Source: Candidatus Uhrbacteria bacterium GW2011_GWF2_39_13
Lineage (GTDB): Bacteria > Patescibacteriota > Patescibacteriia > UBA9934 > GWF2-40-263
DNA length: 44,453 nt
Direction: 5' to 3'
Assembly: GCA_000993535.1 (NCBI GenBank)
Contig: LBWG01000009.1
Coordinates: 1 to 44,453, forward strand
Part shown: one piece after another, positions 203-10,327 of the stretch
Layout of the letters: each line of letters begins with the position of its first letter
How positions within the stretch are numbered: the first letter of the stretch is position 1
The notes under the pieces: generated by a model
Databases searched by the model: none
The model's input: only the letters and a program-made list of their open reading frames with translations
What the model was told of the DNA's origin: nothing
Program-made: the position numbers and the translations under genes

Positions 203-230
203 TAAATAAAAAGAGATGCGTGTGCATCTC
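203..230 (-). terminator. terminator of the helicase-methyltransferase gene
   Basis: GAGATGC (213-219) pairs with GCATCTC (224-230). Read on the minus strand it is followed by a T-run (TTTTTATTT). The stop codon of the upstream gene overlaps the stem. Confidence 0.8.
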
Positions 231-3200
231 AGGTAAACGAGATAATACCCCGTTTTTGAAGTTGCTGAAGGATTCTCCAATCGGTTCCAAAGAGTTCTGT
301 TACCTGCTGGGAGATCTCAATGGGTTTCCCTTCGATTTTGCTCCAGCGCGTGAGTTCTGTAAGCAGTGTCTGGCGAACACCCACGGTGTCGGACGTTTCA
401 TACGCTTCAGGATTTTTGATCACGAACCGTTCATAACAGGCCGGTTCCAGATCCTTTGAGAATTTAGAAGAATGACCTGTTTTTGCCTGCTTGTATTTCA
501 TCTGTTCGAGCTCAAACCGAAATCGGAAAGATAAAGGGTCAAGAGGGGTCAGATGATGTCCAGCGGCAGTGAAGACGATTGACCAGAATGCGAAGTCGGG
601 TCTCTTTTTTCCTGCGTGTTCCACAGGGACGATCAAACCTGTCAGCGGCGAGAGTTCACAACCGCTTTTTTTGAGCGCTTGTGTCCACGCCTTGAACAAT
701 GATTCGTCCAGAGCTTTTTCATTGAACGTCAGCCAGATAAGGCCATGGGGATCTGTGACGCGGATGAGTTCTGTAAGAGCTTTGACCCGTTGTGAGTCCA
801 CAACGGTTCCCAACTGTGTCCAATCTAGAACCATCGAACAGACGCTCAAACGGAAACGTCCTGTCCAAGATGCAGGAAGCTGGCTCACGGTTCCAATCTG
901 GCAGTTGAGCGCGAGCTCTGGGGCTGCTTCGCGTGCCACGTCGATCATCCACGGGTTAAGATCCACGCCTGTTACAGGCATGTTAAGCATTCGCGCCAGT
1001 GTGGCCGGTCCGCACCCTGCATCCAAAATCCGCGTCGGGTCTGTGAGAATCCCTCCGGGGATCAAGCCTTGTTGCACAACGTAGCGCATATGGCGGGCGA
1101 TGTGACCGGAAGCCATAGACTCCTGAGAGGCAAGAAAACTTCTTGCAAAAAGTTCTCCTTGAGTGGAAAGACCGCTTTCTTTATCCAGATAACACCGGGC
1201 TGCTTCCTCGCCAATTCCGCGGACATCGTTATTGACGATGCTTACCCATTCTTTGGGCGTACGCATGAGATCTGAAAGCGTTGCGCTGTCGGATTTTGTA
1301 TAGTCGTCCCATTCCTCTTGTGTGGGAGGAACGCGGGAACGGAAACGTGTAAGCGAATTCCACTTACGACGGTTTAGTTCCATCCGGGCTTCGTCTATCG
1401 TGCCTTGCAGCACAGGACAGACGTAACGCATGGGGACACGCAGTCCTTCACGCCAGAATCGTCCAAGGAATTGCTTCCAAGGCTTCCAGTCCAAAGCGAA
1501 TCCGATCACCAGCAGTTCTTTAAGAGTCGCGTCACTTTCAATAGTGACAGACAGATTGATCGAATCAGGACAAGTTTTCATGGAGACAAGCAGGATCCGG
1601 GCGGACTCTTGTGTCCGCCATCGTCTGATTACATCGTTTCGATCATCTCCAATGGCTACGTCCCCATCTAAGATCAGGACGGTATTTTCTCCATACCATT
1701 CCTGTAACTGGCGTCCGATCCAGAAAATTTCTTCATCGCCTTTGATGGGTTTGGTGATGCCAGAGACATACATTCCAGAGGCCACCACGATTTTTGCTGT
1801 TCCTATGTTTTGATCGCATTGATCTTTTAACCACACCAGTTTGGCAGAGAGATTCCAGTGTTCAAACGCCTCTTCTATCTGGGGAGGCCAGTCGTATTCT
1901 GCTACTCGCGAGAGCACGTGAGGCATATCGCAGGCATACAAGAGGTAGCGAACCTTTTTGCTTCCATCGACTCCATTAACGATTTTAAGGGAATCTTCCT
2001 CATCTCCCTGATCGGGTATCTGATGCAACAGATGTTGATAAAGTGTCGCTTGAGCAGACGTCATCTCAAGGGCAATAGGGTTAAATAAATCTTCCCAAGG
2101 TTTTGGATCAATAGAGGGAAGCTCACGGACTTCATGGAGCCCAATGTCCAGAATACAAGTCTCAAATAATGCTCTGAGGAATCTTGGACTGGCATAGGCG
2201 CCTGAGCGCAGAAAATCCCGAGGATTTGGAAACAGTTCAGGTCGCAGGATGCAGGCGAGAGCCGCGATTTCTTCCGGACTGTTTTCCCAAGGCGTAGCAG
2301 AATTGGCCACGATTTTTTTGAGATTGGGAACATGGGTCTGAATAATTTCTAGTGCTCCCAACGCGCGTTTTGCGGGAGTGGTTCCTACCACGTTTTTTCC
2401 ATAATGGCTTTCGTCCCAAATGATTCCATCGATTTTTTGTTCTTTGAGCATTTGGATAATGCGTCGATGAACAAGTGTGGTGTAAGCCACGATAATGAAC
2501 TCTGCGTTATCGGCGAGTATTTTATCGGTGTTTTGCAGGACTTCTACTCGGCCGACCCCGCGCAGATGAGGCAGATAGAGCTTTAACTCCTGTTCCCAAT
2601 TTTGTCTGGCGTTGGCTGCACAGAAGATAAGCACTTTGCCCGCGCGCGCCTGTCGCATCGCAAGCACGGAATAGCTGGTCTTATAGGTTCCTGTATCTCC
2701 AATATTGAGAACGCGCGTTTGCGTGGCAGAGCGATCCAGCCACCAATGCACATGCATCGCGGGAAACAGCCGATCATTTATTCTTGAGACGGTTTGCGGG
2801 AAAGATTCTTTGAGATAGCGATCCAGATGCGTTCGAGCCAAATTCCATACCTGTGCTTCATAAGAATCTGCACAGAGGATCTGTTCTTGGACATATTCCA
2901 CTCCCAATTCTGGATCGCGCGAGTACCAATACAAAAGTTCTCGGATACGGCATTCCACATCAAGATCCTGAACTTCGCGAGGGATTGACTGAAGGAGTTT
3001 CTCATCAATAGCAACGGTCAGCCGGTTCGTCGCATTTCCTGCTCCATTTCTTGGCGCTACGGTGATCATTCCGAGTTCTGTACCCAGACGCTTATCGCTT
3101 TGAAGGCGAATAATCAGACGCGTTACCCATTGTGGGTTTCCATAGAAGAGTTCTGGACACACACGCACAAGCGCTCTGGCGAGCGCTTCTGGGTAAGCCT

Positions 3201-3414
3201 GAAAACGGTGCCAGAGATATTTGAGCAAATCATTTTTTGTGATCTGTTCAAAATAATAGCGCGGGTTGCGTTGGATCGACTGCACGAGAAGCTGATACAG
3301 GTCATGCTCAGTGAGTTCCCCTCGTTCAAACAGATATTTGAAGAACTCGAATTTACGCTCCCCATCGGTCATGCCCGAGAGAAGATCCAACATTCTTTTT
3401 TGGGTGACGGACAT
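229..3414 (-). CDS. SF2/SNF2-like helicase fused to a class I SAM methyltransferase
   Basis: 1061 aa with no recognisable domain in about residues 1-220. A helicase-like core follows: a Walker A-like GDTGTYKT (239-246), a DESH box (334-337), SATPWENSPEE as motif III (372-382) and QFLGRFWREG as motif VI (648-657). After a linker comes a class I methyltransferase with DAGCGPA (798-804), GVDLNPWM (816-823) and a post-motif strand CSMVLDW. No NPPY or DPPY motif is seen, so the target is more likely RNA, protein or a small molecule than DNA bases. The glycine before the Walker A lysine is replaced by Tyr244, confirmed in the codons, which may weaken ATP hydrolysis. A GAGGG Shine-Dalgarno precedes the ATG. 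The 609-aa gene lies upstream on the same strand behind a terminator. A role in defence or nucleic-acid remodelling is inference. Confidence 0.8.
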   Translation of the reverse strand: MSVTQKRMLDLLSGMTDGERKFEFFKYLFERGELTEHDLYQLLVQSIQRNPRYYFEQITKNDLLKYLWHRFQAYPEALARALVRVCPELFYGNPQWVTRLIIRLQSDKRLGTELGMITVAPRNGAGNATNRLTVAIDEKLLQSIPREVQDLDVECRIRELLYWYSRDPELGVEYVQEQILCADSYEAQVWNLARTHLDRYLKESFPQTVSRINDRLFPAMHVHWWLDRSATQTRVLNIGDTGTYKTSYSVLAMRQARAGKVLIFCAANARQNWEQELKLYLPHLRGVGRVEVLQNTDKILADNAEFIIVAYTTLVHRRIIQMLKEQKIDGIIWDESHYGKNVVGTTPAKRALGALEIIQTHVPNLKKIVANSATPWENSPEEIAALACILRPELFPNPRDFLRSGAYASPRFLRALFETCILDIGLHEVRELPSIDPKPWEDLFNPIALEMTSAQATLYQHLLHQIPDQGDEEDSLKIVNGVDGSKKVRYLLYACDMPHVLSRVAEYDWPPQIEEAFEHWNLSAKLVWLKDQCDQNIGTAKIVVASGMYVSGITKPIKGDEEIFWIGRQLQEWYGENTVLILDGDVAIGDDRNDVIRRWRTQESARILLVSMKTCPDSINLSVTIESDATLKELLVIGFALDWKPWKQFLGRFWREGLRVPMRYVCPVLQGTIDEARMELNRRKWNSLTRFRSRVPPTQEEWDDYTKSDSATLSDLMRTPKEWVSIVNNDVRGIGEEAARCYLDKESGLSTQGELFARSFLASQESMASGHIARHMRYVVQQGLIPGGILTDPTRILDAGCGPATLARMLNMPVTGVDLNPWMIDVAREAAPELALNCQIGTVSQLPASWTGRFRLSVCSMVLDWTQLGTVVDSQRVKALTELIRVTDPHGLIWLTFNEKALDESLFKAWTQALKKSGCELSPLTGLIVPVEHAGKKRPDFAFWSIVFTAAGHHLTPLDPLSFRFRFELEQMKYKQAKTGHSSKFSKDLEPACYERFVIKNPEAYETSDTVGVRQTLLTELTRWSKIEGKPIEISQQVTELFGTDWRILQQLQKRGIISFT

Positions 3415-3557: not shown

Positions 3558-5387
3558 CTAGGAGGAGATTTCATCCAGTAGACCTTGGATTTCTGCTTGC
3601 AGTTTCATCAGGTCAGCTTTCAAGGAAGGATTTTTATCATCCTTTAAGGCTTCGCTGGTGAGAGTATCCAATTGCCTCTTAAATTGTCGGCGCATGATAC
3701 CGGCGGGAAGCTGTTTGAGTTTTCGTTGGGTTTCATCAACAAGCATTCCTAATTTCCCTTCAGGAATTTCAGGAACTTTTTTTGCTTGTAGATCCTCAAC
3801 AGGTACCTGCTCGTGTGCAGGAGGACTCGTTTTTTGGGTTTCTTCCAAAACTTCAGCAGGGGTCGTTGTCAGAACTATTCCTTGTTTAAGACGTTCATCG
3901 AGTTTTTTGATTCGCTCGCGAATGGGATCTATCCATACGGACCATTGATCGAGAACTCCCTCGACATCTCCCAAAGAGGCACGTCGCAAAATGATTTCAA
4001 TATTATTTAACTCTTGATGCAAAGCAAGAAGATCAGGATCTGCAGGAAGAGAAGATTGTGTTTGAGAACAGATGTCTTCTTTAATCAAGTAGAGAACATC
4101 ATTCCATGGATTAACAGCCACAGATTCTGGCGGAGGAGTTTGTTCCTCTTTCGAAGTGAACAAGTAAGGATCATCCAACAAACAAGAGCAGAGTTCCGCG
4201 CGCCGCATCCATGCAGCAAGCGCGTCCTCACAGAACGCTTCGTGTTTCTTATCTACATTCCCTAGTGATAACTCCTTACATTCTTCTTTCGGAAGAGTTT
4301 TTTCTTTTGGAGATGATACGATAATAGGATCAGGGACAAGTACGAGTGCGTTAGAGGGTTTATAAAGACCTGGTGCGTATGCGTGATCAGGAAAATGAAT
4401 AGATCCTTTAGACTGCTTTGTGTTGTTCCAGATATTGATGATGGATGAAATCAACCGAGGATTCTCCAAGACTTCATCGTCGACTTTTTTTCCATCTGGA
4501 AGAGCATTCGGATACAATTCATGTCTGATAGATTGAGCAAAGACGAGAAGCTTCGTTTTTCTTCCAGAATCTTTCCATTGTCTGAAGAGATGCCGAATTC
4601 CTTCGTAAGAAAGGGCACGAATGAGTTCCGGATTATTTAGGAAGAGGTAACACGTTTTCGATGTGAGGATTTCATCAGCGATGAGCTGAATAAAATCGTC
4701 TATTCGCATGGGGACATGAGTCAGAACAAGACGTTCTATATGCGGCAGTTCTATTCCTGCCTGATAAGCCGTTTTGACAAGATGAAAGATTTTACAGGGA
4801 GGGACATTACTCATGAGCTTGTAAGTAATCTCAAACGTCTGGATGGTGATTTGCGCTGATTGGATGGGGATTGTTCCCTTTTCAGTACAGAAACATCCCC
4901 AATGATCTTGGAAAAATTCAAAGAGCTGACAGCTTATCAAATAAACATTTTTCCAAAAATAATTGTCTTTGATCACACGCCCGCTTCGGCGACCTTGCCT
5001 TCGAGTGTCTTGTTGTCCCAGTTCATCTTCTATCTTTTTTTGAATCCAAAAAAACAGATGTAGGAGTTGATTCAGATCATCAAAATAGAGATGGTGAGTT
5101 TCTGTTTCTTCCAAAAAAGGAAGAATTTCTGGTCGTGCTCTTTTAATGAGTTGTTTGGCTAATGTTTGCAAAAGCTCCTCTTCTGAAAAGGAACTTCCTT
5201 GCTTTTTTTCTTTTTTGACCATGCGCATGAGCACTTGCTCTATCAGCTGAACATCCTTGACGACAGTAATCCCCGTGTTTTCTAGGAAGCGTTGAGTTTC
5301 AATTAACCTTATGTCATTCCAATCAAACGTCGCACGTGTCAGAGCAATCTGTCTAGTGAGTTTACTTAATGCAACTTTTTTTGTCAT
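3558..5387 (-). CDS. 609-aa protein of unknown function
   Basis: I do not recognise this protein. It is soluble, with no signal peptide or membrane segment. The N-terminal two thirds look largely alpha-helical with scattered Cys and Trp residues. Around residues 355-470 it is proline- and glutamate-rich, like a linker. The C-terminal 150 residues are charged and helical (KLDERLKQG, ETQRKLKQLPAG, ADLMKLQAEIQG), compatible with a coiled coil. It lies upstream of the helicase-methyltransferase gene on the same strand, 143 bp away with a terminator between. A functional partnership is possible but rests only on position. Confidence 0.75.
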   Translation of the reverse strand: MTKKVALSKLTRQIALTRATFDWNDIRLIETQRFLENTGITVVKDVQLIEQVLMRMVKKEKKQGSSFSEEELLQTLAKQLIKRARPEILPFLEETETHHLYFDDLNQLLHLFFWIQKKIEDELGQQDTRRQGRRSGRVIKDNYFWKNVYLISCQLFEFFQDHWGCFCTEKGTIPIQSAQITIQTFEITYKLMSNVPPCKIFHLVKTAYQAGIELPHIERLVLTHVPMRIDDFIQLIADEILTSKTCYLFLNNPELIRALSYEGIRHLFRQWKDSGRKTKLLVFAQSIRHELYPNALPDGKKVDDEVLENPRLISSIINIWNNTKQSKGSIHFPDHAYAPGLYKPSNALVLVPDPIIVSSPKEKTLPKEECKELSLGNVDKKHEAFCEDALAAWMRRAELCSCLLDDPYLFTSKEEQTPPPESVAVNPWNDVLYLIKEDICSQTQSSLPADPDLLALHQELNNIEIILRRASLGDVEGVLDQWSVWIDPIRERIKKLDERLKQGIVLTTTPAEVLEETQKTSPPAHEQVPVEDLQAKKVPEIPEGKLGMLVDETQRKLKQLPAGIMRRQFKRQLDTLTSEALKDDKNPSLKADLMKLQAEIQGLLDEISS

Positions 5388-5492: not shown

Positions 5493-5558
5493 TCCCACGA
5501 CTTGGAATTGTCTATTGGCGACTCCTTGTGATCGGAAAACCAAAAAATGAGGTGTACG

Positions 5559-6782
5559 ATGATTGATGTACAGGTTCAGGATAGTGGTCGTCAGATTCCC
5601 AGCGTCTGGCAGCCAGGTGATGAGATCCCGGTTTGTCGGGAAATTTCCGTCCAGATCCCCGAGTTACAGAATGGGTGCCCTACAAGACGCTATATCGTAG
5701 AGACGTCGGTCGGTACGGGTATCAAGCCCGTTGCCGATTACGTCAATGCTCTGGTTCCGGGTGGGGTCATCGAGCACCTGGGGCGTCGTGAGATGTTGAG
5801 CTTTGCACAGTCTGGTCTGAGTGGCATGGATGATTTCAGTGGTTTCAATCCACTCTCGATGTCCAGGGGAGTTAATACTTCTTCGCTCTTTTTCCAGGCT
5901 GTCCACTCATGCTTTGCCGATCACTATCCCCTGGCTCTTCGGCCTGAGGTGCTCATGCAGCTGGTGTTGAGCCAGATTGCCGAAGCTGTGAAGCAGAACC
6001 CCGAGCGTTATCGAGATCTGTTTACGACTAATGGTGAAAAGGAGAATATTGAGATCGAGCATAACGGTCTGGTCCGAGGGAGCCTGAGCCCCTGGCATGA
6101 GGCCATCGAGCTGTTCTGTCCCGCCCTGCAGGAGAAGGTTCCTTCCATGCTCATGCAAGACATGCTCGCTCCGTTTTCGACGGACACCATGGAAGCCCAG
6201 CTCGCGAGGCTGGTGACGTTCATGGACGCGGCATCGCCGTTCTATGAATATAGCGTCAGGACGCTGTGCGGGATACCCCGTGTCCGGATGCTCGGAACGG
6301 CGGAAGATTGGCAGATGCTGGCCACTTCCGTTGCGAACCTGAGTCGGTTCTTCGGGGATACCCTGGAGAAGTACTTCCGTTACCTGATTCCGGTCACCGA
6401 TAAGCTGGCCGCTCAGGCCGCCGGTCAAGCTCACGATAATACTTTCTGGGTCTCGCTCTACAAGTATAAGAGCGAGTCTGGAGGCGCTAAGTGCAACGGC
6501 TGGATCACAGCCTTCTTGAACTTCATTTTCGATTCCGAGAAAAACGTGGTCGAAAAACGCGACAATGCCTACGACTGGACCACTGAACATAAATATTTCA
6601 TGCCAGGCATAGGTCACGGTAGTGTTCCCTCCCTGGTCTCCAGTGTTCCATTCGTTTGGAAGTATCTGGGAACCAAGATCGATATGAGGTTCTTAGGAGG
6701 AGTCCTGGGTGTCGACCTAATCGACGGTTGTGTAACTCCTGCACTTTCTTACGCGGTGGTACAGTCACCTTCCGTCAACTGA
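5559..6782 (+). CDS. DUF4419-like protein
   Basis: About 407 aa. I chose the ATG at 5559 over the one at 5547 because GAGGTG lies 4 nt upstream of it. The central and C-terminal parts resemble the DUF4419 family as I know it: a segment after LALRPEVLMQLVLSQI, the phase FSTDTMEAQLARLVTFMDA, then GIPRVRMLGTAEDWQML, a FW-x4-YK stretch and GWITAFLNF. The function of the family is unknown. No signal peptide or membrane segment is seen. Base composition is richer in G and C than neighbouring hppA or rnhB. The gene is a self-contained unit with its own promoter (5464) and terminator (6801), which suggests acquisition as a single-gene cassette. Confidence 0.75.
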   Translation: MIDVQVQDSGRQIPSVWQPGDEIPVCREISVQIPELQNGCPTRRYIVETSVGTGIKPVADYVNALVPGGVIEHLGRREMLSFAQSGLSGMDDFSGFNPLSMSRGVNTSSLFFQAVHSCFADHYPLALRPEVLMQLVLSQIAEAVKQNPERYRDLFTTNGEKENIEIEHNGLVRGSLSPWHEAIELFCPALQEKVPSMLMQDMLAPFSTDTMEAQLARLVTFMDAASPFYEYSVRTLCGIPRVRMLGTAEDWQMLATSVANLSRFFGDTLEKYFRYLIPVTDKLAAQAAGQAHDNTFWVSLYKYKSESGGAKCNGWITAFLNFIFDSEKNVVEKRDNAYDWTTEHKYFMPGIGHGSVPSLVSSVPFVWKYLGTKIDMRFLGGVLGVDLIDGCVTPALSYAVVQSPSVN

Positions 6783-6893: not shown

Positions 6894-8885
6894 TTAAACA
6901 ATGAGAGCCACGATCAAGAGGGCGACGATATTGAGAATTTTGATCATTGGGTTGATGGCAGGACCGGCAGTGTCTTTGTAGGGATCGCCGACCGTATCAC
7001 CTGTGACAGCAGCTTTGTGAGCATATGATCCTTTTCCTCCGTAGTTTCCTGCTTCAATGTATTTTTTTGCATTGTCCCAGGCACCTCCTCCGGTGGTCAT
7101 GGAAATAGCAACAAAGAGTCCTGTAATAATGGAACCAATAAGGAGTCCACCAAGGGCCTGTGCTCCTAATCCAAATCCGACGATCACAGGAGAAAATACA
7201 GCTAAGAGTGAAGGAGCAATCATGTATTTGACGGCCGAGGCTGTCACGATATCAACGGCTTTTCCATATTCTGGTTTAGCCGTTCCTTGCATGATACCTG
7301 GAATTTCACGGAACTGACGTCGGACTTCTTCCACAACGGCACCAGCCGCTTTTCCCACGGCCTCCATAGCCATAGCTGCGAAAAGATACGTAATAAGTCC
7401 TCCGATAAAGAGTCCTGCAATCACTTGTGGGTCTACAAGACTAAACACAATTTTTGCACCGGTGGCTTCAATGGTATGAACATAGTCTCCAAACAACACG
7501 AGCGTGGCAAGACCTGCTGAACCGATAGCATAAGCCTTGGTTACCGCTTTGGTGGTGTTTCCAACCGCGTCCAATGGATCGGTGACCGCACGCACTTCGG
7601 GAGGCAAGTCACTCATTTCTGCAATTCCACCAGCATTGTCTGTGATAGGACCATAGGCATCCATAGCCACAATGATTCCTGTCAGAGACAACATAGCCAC
7701 GGCAGTAATAGCAATTCCGTATAGACCCGCAAGATCGTAAGCAATTAAGATTCCCGCAATGATAGTGATCACTGGAAGAGCTGTTGATTTCATCGAAAGT
7801 GCCAGACCAGCAATAATGTTGGTTCCGTGTCCTGATTGTGAAGCCTCTGCGAGTTTTTGAACTGGTTTATAGTGAGTTGCTGTGTAATATTCTGTGATGA
7901 TAATCAACAATCCTGTGATAACAAGTCCTAAAAGGGCTGACCAGAATAAAGACATTGTTTCCATTCCTGTTCCAGAGAAATCAAATCCTTTTGTGATGAA
8001 CCAAAATCCAACAGCCGCCAGAGCTCCTGCAGCCGCCAGGCCTTTATATAAGGCGCCCATGATGTTTTGGCTTTTGTCTAGTTTGATGAAAAAGGTTCCG
8101 ATAATGGAGGCAACAATAGCAATAGATCCAAGAGCAAGAGGATACATCACCAAGACGTCAGAGTTTGGAGTAAGAAGATTTCCTAAAACCATTGTGGCAA
8201 CAAGGGTCACCGCATAGGTTTCAAACAAGTCAGCGGCCATTCCAGCACAGTCTCCGACGTTATCACCAACATTGTCGGCAATCACGGCTGGGTTGCGTGG
8301 ATCGTCTTCTGGGATATCAGCTTCTGTTTTTCCAACAAGATCTGCTCCTACGTCTGCTGCCTTTGTGAAAATTCCTCCACCAAGTCGGGCAAAGACGGAA
8401 ATGAGAGATCCACCGAATCCAAGACCTATCAATGCGGAAATGTCCATGGTAGCGGCATAGAATCCCGTGACTCCCAAAAGCGCCAAACCTACCACTAATA
8501 ATCCAGTAACGGTTCCGCCACGTACTGCCACGTCAAGTGCTTGAGAGAGCCCTGTTTTTGCCGCTTCTGCGGTGCGTACATTTGCTCGTACAGAGACAGA
8601 CATACCAATATATCCTGCAAGTCCAGAGAGGATAGCTCCAACAAGAAAACCAAGGGCAAGGGTCCAGGTAAGCGTAAAACCAAGAATCAGGAAGATGATT
8701 GCTCCAATAAGAGTGATCATTTTATACTGGCGGGCCATGTAGGCGTTTGCTCCTTCTTGGATCGCAAGGGCAATGCCTTTCATTTTTCCTTCTCCTGCGG
8801 GACGCTTAAGAATCCATTGGGTCAGAACAGCGCCCCAGGCAATAGCAAGGACTCCTGCGGCTAAAGCGTACTGTATAATGGTCAT
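6894..8885 (-). CDS. hppA: membrane-bound proton-translocating pyrophosphatase, K+-independent type
   Basis: This integral membrane enzyme couples pyrophosphate hydrolysis to H+ export. About 663 aa from the internal ATG (MTIIQYAL). An upstream in-frame extension to 8939 is possible but looks non-native. Many transmembrane helices are visible. The substrate loop [18 protein letters not shown] is present, followed by [20 protein letters not shown] second acidic motif occurs at the C-terminus (AWDNAKK ... [15 protein letters not shown]). The GNTTKA motif has Lys where K+-dependent enzymes have Ala, which by the known rule marks the K+-independent H+-pumping class. Upstream on the minus strand a small palindrome (GATCGT/ACGATC) sits in the leader. 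rnhB is divergent. Confidence 0.96.
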
Positions 8886-8962
8886 AGTAAATATGGATAT
8901 AAAAGATCGTTGAACGATCCTGATAAAGAAATACGCCAATATATTAGGAAAAATTGAGTTTT

Positions 8963-9565
8963 ATGTCAATCAAACCGATCCCGACATTTAAATATGAACG
9001 AATGCTTGCTTGTCAGGGATACCAAAGAATTGCCGGCACAGACGAAGCAGGATGCGGAGCACTTGCAGGTCCTGTAGTGGCAGGAGCGGTTATTTTACCC
9101 TTAAACTCTCGTATTGGAGGTATAAGGGATAGTAAGCTTTTACGAGAATCTCAACGTGAAGAGCTTTATGCGTTCATTACTAGCCGGGCTGTTGCTTGGA
9201 GTATTGGGAGTGCAAGTGTGGAGGAAATTTATACGTTGGGTATCCGACAAGCAAATTATTTAGCTATACGTCGAGCGGTGGAGGCTCTTTCAGAGATTGA
9301 TTATGTTTTGGTAGACGCTTGGACGATTCCCAATCTTTCTTGTCCTCAAAAAGGGATTATTCGCGGAGACCAATCGATCAAGTCTATTGCCGCCGCTTCC
9401 ATCATTGCTAAAGTGACTAGAGATCGGATGATGAAGGTACTTTCTGAACAATATCCCGAGTATGGATTTGAGAAACATAAAGGATATGGAACTGTTTCCC
9501 ATAAAAAAGCGATACATATACACGGTCCCTGTGCTATTCATCGATTAAATTTTCATTCGTCATGA
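8963..9565 (+). CDS. rnhB: ribonuclease HII
   Basis: Cleaves the RNA strand of RNA-DNA hybrids and single ribonucleotides in DNA. About 200 aa from ATG 8963; a TTG at 8954 is an alternative start and has AGGA just upstream. The signature GTDEAGCG supplies the Asp-Glu metal pair near residues 27-28, a DSK loop follows, VLVDAW supplies the third Asp, and KVTRDRMM the fourth. GFEKHKGYGTVSH and HRLNF complete the family pattern. Length is typical. It is divergent from hppA with a short shared intergenic region. Confidence 0.95.
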   Translation: MSIKPIPTFKYERMLACQGYQRIAGTDEAGCGALAGPVVAGAVILPLNSRIGGIRDSKLLRESQREELYAFITSRAVAWSIGSASVEEIYTLGIRQANYLAIRRAVEALSEIDYVLVDAWTIPNLSCPQKGIIRGDQSIKSIAAASIIAKVTRDRMMKVLSEQYPEYGFEKHKGYGTVSHKKAIHIHGPCAIHRLNFHSS

Positions 9566-9685
9566 ATCGTTGACAAATATGGTGTATTGTGGTTTCTTTA
9601 TTAAAGTTCCAAAGGTGGTCTTTGCTGTTTTTGTTTAAAATTCAGCGAGACTTTTTTCAAAAAGCACAAACAAAGGGGACTGACC

Positions 9686-10327
9686 ATGTCAAAAGACATG
9701 CTCGGTATTGCCGTGAGAAAGCTCGTGACGCTCCCCGTTTCGTCTTTGGGGATCATCTGCGACCTGCTCGAGAAGATCAGCGATCCACAGTGGGTGGAGG
9801 CGACCAAGAGGTTTCTCCGAAAGGAGAATCCTTGGGTCAAGCAGTGGCTTTGGCGAAAAATCGATGAAAACACCATTGAGGTGAATCTCGATTTTCCTGT
9901 CAAACTTCCGTTCGAGGAAGCTGAGCTGCGGGTGTGGAAGAAGTGCTCAGGTCTTGTGATCGTCAAACGAATAGGTGAAGATCTGTTCATTGACGATCGC
10001 AAGATTATTTTACACTTCGAGATTGAACAGAACTCAGGGACGATTCCAGGTTCCACCTTGCTTACGAGGCTTGTTGAGAAGGATGTTTTGCATCCCAACA
10101 TCCTTGATGCATTGTTGGAGAACACACATCTCATCCCGAATTCCTTCAAGAAGGATAAGGACGGAAACATCCAGATTGTATTCTTCTGGGCAGTAGGTTT
10201 TCGGGATGGCAATGGCGTCGTGTGCATCCGTTGCCTCCACTTCGATGACGGTCGATGGGGCTGGGACTACGGCTGGCTTGACAATGGCTTTGACGATCAG
10301 TGCCCTGCCGTCCTGCTGGCGAGTTAG
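9686..10327 (+). CDS. conserved hypothetical protein, soluble
   Basis: 213 aa starting MSKDMLGIAVRKLV, with GGGG 8-9 nt before the ATG as a plausible Shine-Dalgarno. No membrane segment or known catalytic motif is visible. The N-terminal 50 residues form an amphipathic helical region that ends in FLRKENPW. The C-terminus has an aromatic, acidic motif (DDGRWGWDYGWLDNGFDD) ending in CPAVLLAS. I have an impression of similar short proteins in CPR genomes but cannot name a family. It stands alone between rnhB and the M23 gene, with a private terminator. Codon use looks GC-richer than the neighbours. Confidence 0.7.
   Translation: MSKDMLGIAVRKLVTLPVSSLGIICDLLEKISDPQWVEATKRFLRKENPWVKQWLWRKIDENTIEVNLDFPVKLPFEEAELRVWKKCSGLVIVKRIGEDLFIDDRKIILHFEIEQNSGTIPGSTLLTRLVEKDVLHPNILDALLENTHLIPNSFKKDKDGNIQIVFFWAVGFRDGNGVVCIRCLHFDDGRWGWDYGWLDNGFDDQCPAVLLAS

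Follow-up and report, generated by a model that had tools for sequence, protein, structure and literature searches.

A single-chain SNF2 translocase-methyltransferase with a patchy distribution in Patescibacteria and its candidate partners in DNA targeting

Loci that combine an SNF2 motor with a methyltransferase recur in bacterial DNA defence and modification. DISARM carries an SNF2-type motor (DrmD) and a methyltransferase (DrmMI/MII) in one locus, and type ISP enzymes and DarB of phage P1 are single-chain helicase-methyltransferases with N6-adenine methylases. A DNA glycosylase can also serve defence, as the anti-phage enzyme Brig1 excises alpha-glucosyl-hydroxymethylcytosine (alpha-glucosyl-hmC) from T4 DNA (PMC11078745); the word methyltransferase is absent from that paper.

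The stretch analysed here (the window; 44,453 nucleotides, positions 1 to 44,453 of contig LBWG01000009.1) comes from Candidatus Uhrbacteria bacterium GW2011_GWF2_39_13 (genome G000; 1.16 Mb, 69% complete). Near the left end of this 82,654-base contig lies a gene, here called HelMT, whose product fuses an SNF2 translocase to a class I methyltransferase. HelMT is distinct in that one chain combines the motor with a methyltransferase lacking a DNA-methylase motif, and in that its partners share a docking-like tail and differ in their DNA-reading heads, which include the fold of the human DNA glycosylase AAG. The architecture (the fusion, its partners, their shared tail and a variable chromosomal slot) was read directly from the genomes compared, and from it we tentatively infer that HelMT forms the centre of a DNA-targeting complex of several subunits, serving modification or surveillance and probably acting against mobile elements. 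If so, it would be a modular targeting machine of Patescibacteria, with a directly testable DNA code in its repeat arrays.

Described systems and the distribution of HelMT

No named system fits HelMT, which lacks a tested defining feature of each of the four candidates, DISARM, the 7-deazaguanine DNA modification system Dpd, MADS and type ISP. The first-pass annotation, made from the sequence alone, had placed HelMT outside DISARM, and rightly so: the DrmD model NF038318 gave only 17.3 bits against a cut-off of 950, and unlike DISARM, HelMT is one chain whose methyltransferase has no DNA-methylase motif. No DrmA, DrmB or DrmC was detected in the neighbours scanned with PADLOC, the window's own locus stopping at the contig edge. 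The same annotation overstated its case in holding that helicases and methyltransferases combine only as separate genes, since DarB and type ISP enzymes are single-chain. HelMT shares this one-chain layout with them, and type ISP was rejected because HelMT has no nuclease domain in Pfam and no N6-adenine (NPPY-type) motif.

The likeness to Dpd lies in the SNF2 motor, with weak DpdE matches, and in a DGQHR/DpdB-like protein in five genomes; unlike Dpd, HelMT has a methyltransferase and both AAG-like and array partners. Dpd was ruled out because no DpdA (TGT-like) gene lies in the cluster: TGT is an ordinary gene away from the islands, with one full copy in each of 10 of the 12 genomes, and it also occurs in the HelMT-less relative G002 (none was found in G000 or G084; G005 has a further 65-amino acid (aa) frame). 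The best PADLOC match of HelMT was the methyltransferase part of mad2 from MADS (4e-9). It spans only 289-419 of 492 and reflects the generic methyltransferase fold, so MADS was rejected, and no other mad gene matched in the neighbours scanned, which were a part of all neighbours. Brig1 recalls the HelMT loci in that a DNA glycosylase occurs where defence is presumed; at the HelMT loci the AAG-like protein accompanies a motor as one type of subunit. Searches of open-licence PMC papers yielded, among the entries listed, no account of the HelMT arrangement, and the neighbours suggest a distinct system, as the first-pass annotation had supposed.

HelMT was found in 14 genomes in all, two of them (G652 and G264) with partial copies at contig ends. 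Among relatives, 8 of 95 genomes had it; the order gave 7 of 72, the class 10 of 380 and a sample of the phylum 2 of 379. The samples share genomes, and the window's genome is counted in each one to which it belongs. Four of the six genomes of the window's genus carry it, and HelMT-type matches occurred in 6 of 41 genomes of the family of G720, one being an ordinary SNF2 protein. The ordinary 831-aa SNF2 protein of G744 was left out of the HelMT counts. The distribution in Patescibacteria is thus patchy. The gene was not found among 72,556 plasmid and 50,697 phage records as a full-length homologue (the SNF2 part alone matched two plasmid and four phage records, from Listeria), and pattern searches of IMG/VR returned no relatives; a phage or plasmid origin was rejected on these searches.

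The HelMT chain and its motif I

A plus-strand reading of 229-3414 was ruled out, as that frame is full of stops. The features of the left end of the window are as follows.

1-228, no strand: left edge of the contig; this genome's AAG-like, 120-aa and DGQHR partners are on another contig, outside the window
229-3414, minus strand: HelMT, 1061 aa, SNF2 translocase fused to class I methyltransferase
733-1026, minus strand: Methyltransf_11 core, residues 797-894, with the S-adenosylmethionine (SAM) motif LDAGCGP and no NPPY motif
1315-2784, minus strand: SNF2 motor lobes, approximately residues 211-700 (Pfam SNF2-rel and VIA-align)
2677-2700, minus strand: motif I, GDTGTYKT, residues 239-246, with Tyr244 in place of the usual Gly

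HelMT is an SNF2 superfamily 2 translocase with two RecA-like lobes. Both halves exceeded the curated Pfam cut-offs (SNF2-rel_dom at residues 252-461, E 6e-8; Methyltransf_11 at 797-894, E 3.4e-9), and the best PHROG match was a 'DNA helicase' family. The AlphaFold2 model, built with 15 sequences (mean predicted local distance difference test (pLDDT) score 75.7), gave 737 Foldseek matches to SNF2 remodellers at E <= 0.001, the best being Isw1 (2e-17), and VIA-align superposed model range 197-696 on SRCAP (9ca7_A; Z 22.8, 2.9 A over 419 residues). Motifs II (DESH), III (SATP), V and VI (QFLGRFWREG) were all present. The single-chain combination of SNF2 motor and class I methyltransferase described in the first-pass annotation was thus upheld, and every homologue uninterrupted by a contig end has the same fusion.

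Motif I was compared in the 13 homologous proteins in which it could be read, G512 and G720 being treated as distant HelMT; the G652 and G264 copies and two further pieces (G032 C15, G041 C104) do not include the motif. Tyr, encoded at window positions 2683-2685 on the minus strand, occurs in seven (G000, G001, G004, G005, G032, G084, G177; GDTG[T/S]YKT) and Gln in four (GDVGTQKT; G019, G666 and two G041 copies), and the canonical Gly is kept in two (G512, DEMSGGKS; G720, DEMGLGKS). The canonical GxGKT is therefore missing from the window's HelMT, and 11 of the 13 proteins have a non-canonical Walker A. As the variant recurs across homologues, Tyr is genuine, as first noted from the window, and the sequencing error then raised as an alternative is ruled out; Tyr is a lineage-wide, constrained variant. 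The ratio of nonsynonymous to synonymous substitution (dN/dS, NG86 method) against the nearest homologue, which is 89% identical, was 0.058 overall and 0.054-0.058 per domain, indicating purifying selection on the gene. Since the motif I Lys and Thr, the Asp-Glu pair and both motif-VI Arg stay fixed, Tyr or Gln is probably a lineage-specific change that the ATPase tolerates while remaining active, and the Gly, Gln and Tyr series offers a natural set for asking what the SNF2 P-loop tolerates. The loss of the Gly before Lys in 11 of 13 proteins could instead mean that ATP hydrolysis is abolished and HelMT is a DNA-binding scaffold for its methyltransferase, and inactive SNF2 domains are indeed described in other defence proteins, such as PglZ (PMC12839542). 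This is quite improbable, given that Lys245, Thr246, Asp334, Glu335, Gln648, Arg652 and Arg655 are invariant in an eight-row alignment and that the motor, which would be expected to drift if inactive, has a dN/dS of 0.054.

The methyltransferase half resembles the BioC/UbiE group, members of which act on small molecules and proteins. At the motif-IV position the window's protein reads CSMVLDWT, and the family CSMVLDWT, CSLALHWS or ASLVLDFS; neither (D/N/S)PP(Y/F/W) nor PCQ, the DNA-methylase forms of motif IV, was seen there, in agreement with the first-pass annotation. Searched alone against PDB sequences, the domain gave weak, mixed matches (best LahSB, 3e-4), and none of the VIA-align matches listed is a methyltransferase, which can happen with a multi-domain model. 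The BioC/UbiE likeness and the missing DNA-methylase motif would suit an RNA- or protein-directed helicase-methyltransferase, the type of system first proposed. SNF2 motors act on double-stranded DNA, however, and the partners are DNA-type modules (an AAG-like fold, a DGQHR/DpdB-like protein and HNH_repeat arrays), and we consider such a system highly improbable.

Partner proteins and a shared C-terminal tail

The partners of the window's genome lie on another contig (C10):

L051:14623-15669 (C10), minus strand: DGQHR partner
L051:15783-16142 (C10), minus strand: 120-aa partner
L051:16162-16758 (C10), minus strand: AAG-like gene

An AAG-like gene of about 200 aa was present in 10 of the 14 HelMT genomes (G000, G001, G004, G005, G019, G032, G084, G177, G652 and G666), adjoining HelMT except in G000, where it is on C10, and in G019, where it lies in the same island. 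The right end of C10 (L051:16759-17949) holds small unknown ORFs (open reading frames) where the close relative G005 has HelMT, and this stretch of about 1.2 kb is an insertion or rearrangement between HelMT and the AAG-like partner. By its predicted structure the partner has the AAG fold: the model (pLDDT 88.8) gave four Foldseek matches at E <= 0.001, all human AAG chains (ranks 1-4, probability 1.00), the G019 copy exceeded the Pfam methylpurine-glycosylase (MPG) cut-off (54.2 versus 27 bits), the G177 copy matched MPG at E 6.6e-5, and all five PDB profile matches were AAG, though weak (E 0.48-1.3). The position judged by eye to correspond to the catalytic acid, Glu125, holds E or D in 7 of the 10 proteins and K or Q in three (G666, G084, G652). 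A profile built from HelMT neighbourhoods, for which the link of strong matches to HelMT is partly circular, matched 32 of the 380 class genomes, eight at E <= 1e-50, all of them HelMT genomes; the absence of strong matches elsewhere is not circular. The 24 further genomes (6e-11 to 9e-4) probably have ordinary AAGs.

A second, unrelated 3-methyladenine glycosylase family was seen once, at contig end L115:5499-6559 of G264, where a truncated HelMT of the canonical branch is followed by a Tag-type gene (PF03352 Adenine_glyco, E 9.8e-82) and a DUF1428 gene, the glycosylase being two genes from HelMT.

The frequency of AAG-fold partners, the Tag-type gene of G264 and a nearby nfo (endonuclease IV; named by eye from its sequence) would agree with repair of alkylation damage, the SNF2 motor clearing or scanning DNA for an AAG-type glycosylase with the methyltransferase and DGQHR protein as accessories. 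We regard this as improbable, as three AAG-like proteins have K or Q at the catalytic-acid position, sequence-reading arrays are unneeded for repair, presumably ordinary AAGs are spread over 24 further genomes, G264 is a single case, and nfo is present in HelMT-less relatives too, for which reason it was also rejected as a system gene.

Arrays of the HNH_repeat family (PF18780), with three to seven units per protein, were found in G001, G004, G019 and G041. The total was 64 units in 15 proteins, that is, 51 in 13 plus 13 in two more G019 proteins, one of these on a different contig; G019 carries eight arrays. Column entropy was taken from the first 51 repeats with no correction for relatedness, and the most variable of the 56 columns were 42, 26, 49, 39, 27, 30 and 38. 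Six of these seven fall in two short stretches that resemble the helices of a helix-turn-helix (HTH) unit and, judged by the pattern of variation, may be such helices. G666 has a five-unit array of another kind. Repeats also occur in cis, with about seven at the N-terminus of the G720 HelMT and perhaps two in that of G512. Homology among the repeat kinds was examined with hhalign and is not claimed, the probabilities being 10% for HNH_repeat against G720, 25% for G666 against the G512 N-terminus, and below 1% for both HNH_repeat and G720 against G666.

The arrays, the AAG-like proteins and the 120-aa neighbours have a C-terminal domain of about 60 aa in common. A hidden Markov model (HMM) of the G001/G004 arrays matched the C-terminal ends of the AAG-like proteins in G004, G000 and G005 (1.4e-7 to 8.2e-7; G032, 0.05), the 123-aa neighbour in G005 at 2.7e-6 and its G000 copy at 0.004. 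With the HMM of the G019/G041 arrays, the array protein of G666 matched at its two ends (3.1e-18), and the AAG-like tail of G005 at 0.001. Across the 380 class genomes the tail was found in seven, all HelMT carriers (G000, G004, G005, G019, G084, G666, G512); the weak match of G512, a distant HelMT genome, to a 52-aa frame (E 3.8e-4) is probably noise, and the HelMT genomes G177, G652 and G720 had no match in this search. Two array proteins (L078:4105-5694 and L053:7899-9476) have the domain at both ends, and one array could therefore bridge two docking sites.

Of the 13 genomes tested, five, each with HelMT, encode the DGQHR/DpdB-like (DndB/DpdB-like) protein (G000, G001, G004, G005, G032); it is absent from the HelMT-less G002 and G003. 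The domain scored above the cut-off in G004 (62.5 versus 58.85 bits) and just below it in G000 (57.9); the DpdB equivalog model reached 24.6 in G004 against a cut-off of 300. A paper on GmrSD (PMC4619093) describes DndB-superfamily proteins with a DGQHR domain as probably binding DNA and recognising sites of modification.

Based on these sequence features, the shared C-terminal domain may dock the partners onto HelMT. The HTH-like arrays would pick DNA sites, where the SNF2 motor would remodel or move along the DNA and the methyltransferase would modify either a base or a protein bound there; flipping out and reading the altered base, and excising it where the catalytic acid is kept, could be the task of the AAG-like subunit. 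The net effect would probably be the marking or attack of incoming phage or plasmid DNA. As no HNH_repeat was found in G000, recognition there would fall to the AAG-like, 120-aa or DGQHR protein, unless the third of the genome that is missing from the assembly encodes arrays. A bolder and rather improbable version is protein-programmed DNA attack, in which arrays (three to seven repeats, up to eight arrays per genome) dock through the tail and guide one SNF2-methyltransferase, a base is alkylated and then recognised or excised by the AAG-type subunit, and foreign DNA is lost through abasic sites with no classical nuclease. The array genes would then be an exchangeable memory, the protein counterpart of guide-based targeting.

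The variable slot and its neighbours

In Uhrbacteria the island lies between hppA on one side and tig-(nfo)-(imp)-rnpA-dnaA on the other. The window features on the hppA side are as follows.

3558-5387, minus strand: P0002, 609 aa, directly upstream of HelMT, without a Pfam family
5547-6782, plus strand: DUF4419 protein (E 1.5e-53), between P0002 and hppA
6894-8939, minus strand: hppA (H+-pyrophosphatase), bordering the variable slot on its outer side

At this place G006 has a single 107-aa ORF, the HelMT-less G002, G008 and G031 a GHKL-type ATPase with unknown partners, and G036 and G039 other unknown genes. Compared with the tig of G005, that of the HelMT-less G002 (76%) is as close as those of the HelMT-bearing G001 (76%) and G004 (77%), so the cargo of the slot turns over faster than its flanks. 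Housekeeping neighbours together with a canonical Walker A had been named as signs of a general repair role, and here the outcome was mixed: hppA, tig and dnaA do adjoin the island, but the island is cargo that varies, close relatives having lost it or having other genes instead, and most Walker A motifs are non-canonical.

The position beside dnaA and tig, the multiplication of arrays within one genome (eight in G019) and SNF2 lobes structurally closest to chromatin remodellers (SRCAP, SWR1, INO80, ISWI) raise the possibility of a programmable chromosome regulator, in which arrays recruit the SNF2 remodeller-methyltransferase to promoters or the origin of the cell's chromosome, where it would remodel proteins bound to DNA or place marks that control genes. 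This is conceivable but unlikely: the island is dispensable, as near relatives that share its flanks have lost or replaced it, AAG-like and DGQHR partners fit simple regulation badly, and remodeller likeness is general to SNF2 proteins.

Two observations favour defence as the role of the proposed complex: the slot turns over, and distant members score best in their SNF2 parts, among defence models, against ZorD, HmaA, DpdE and DrmD. Several observations weigh against it. No direct link to defence was found, the slot is beside tig/dnaA and not within a recognised defence island, and no part is a certain nuclease. On the clustering with defence genes that the first-pass annotation had proposed to check, PADLOC recognised no known defence gene in the islands apart from SNF2/methyltransferase matches and a weak DpdB match, and gave only weak GHKL-type matches in the slot cargo of HelMT-less relatives. 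Frequent mobility is argued against by the lack of full-length homologues in phage and plasmid records. HNH_repeat was not found in the window's genome (69% complete), no array was seen at the G005 locus, and hhalign did not link the G720, G666 and HNH_repeat kinds. The DGQHR partner is absent from the HelMT carriers G019, G041, G084 and G177, three of the ten AAG-like proteins have K or Q at the catalytic-acid position, and in G000 the AAG-like gene is on a different contig from HelMT, separated from the end of that contig by about 1.2 kb with other ORFs.

The slot GHKL ATPases (HATPase_c_3 or HATPase_c) lie at L087:7355-11303, L091:6165-9614 and L088:5999-9319. Two of the three loci share a conserved partner of about 480-600 aa without a Pfam family, possibly forming with the ATPase another undescribed two-gene system.

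P0002 has orthologues in the same position in G001, G004, G005 and G032, and its N-terminal part also occurs in the HelMT-less G031 and G039. Four tandem paralogues without Pfam families directly follow the distant HelMT of G512 (L055:12479-18714), and a relative of these adjoins HelMT in G084 (L059:8277-9644). Comparison of P0002, the tandem proteins of G512/G084 and the G177 protein at 8219-9913 gave no convincing link. Among the relatives compared, the DUF4419 protein is in this slot in the window's genome only and is probably hotspot cargo.

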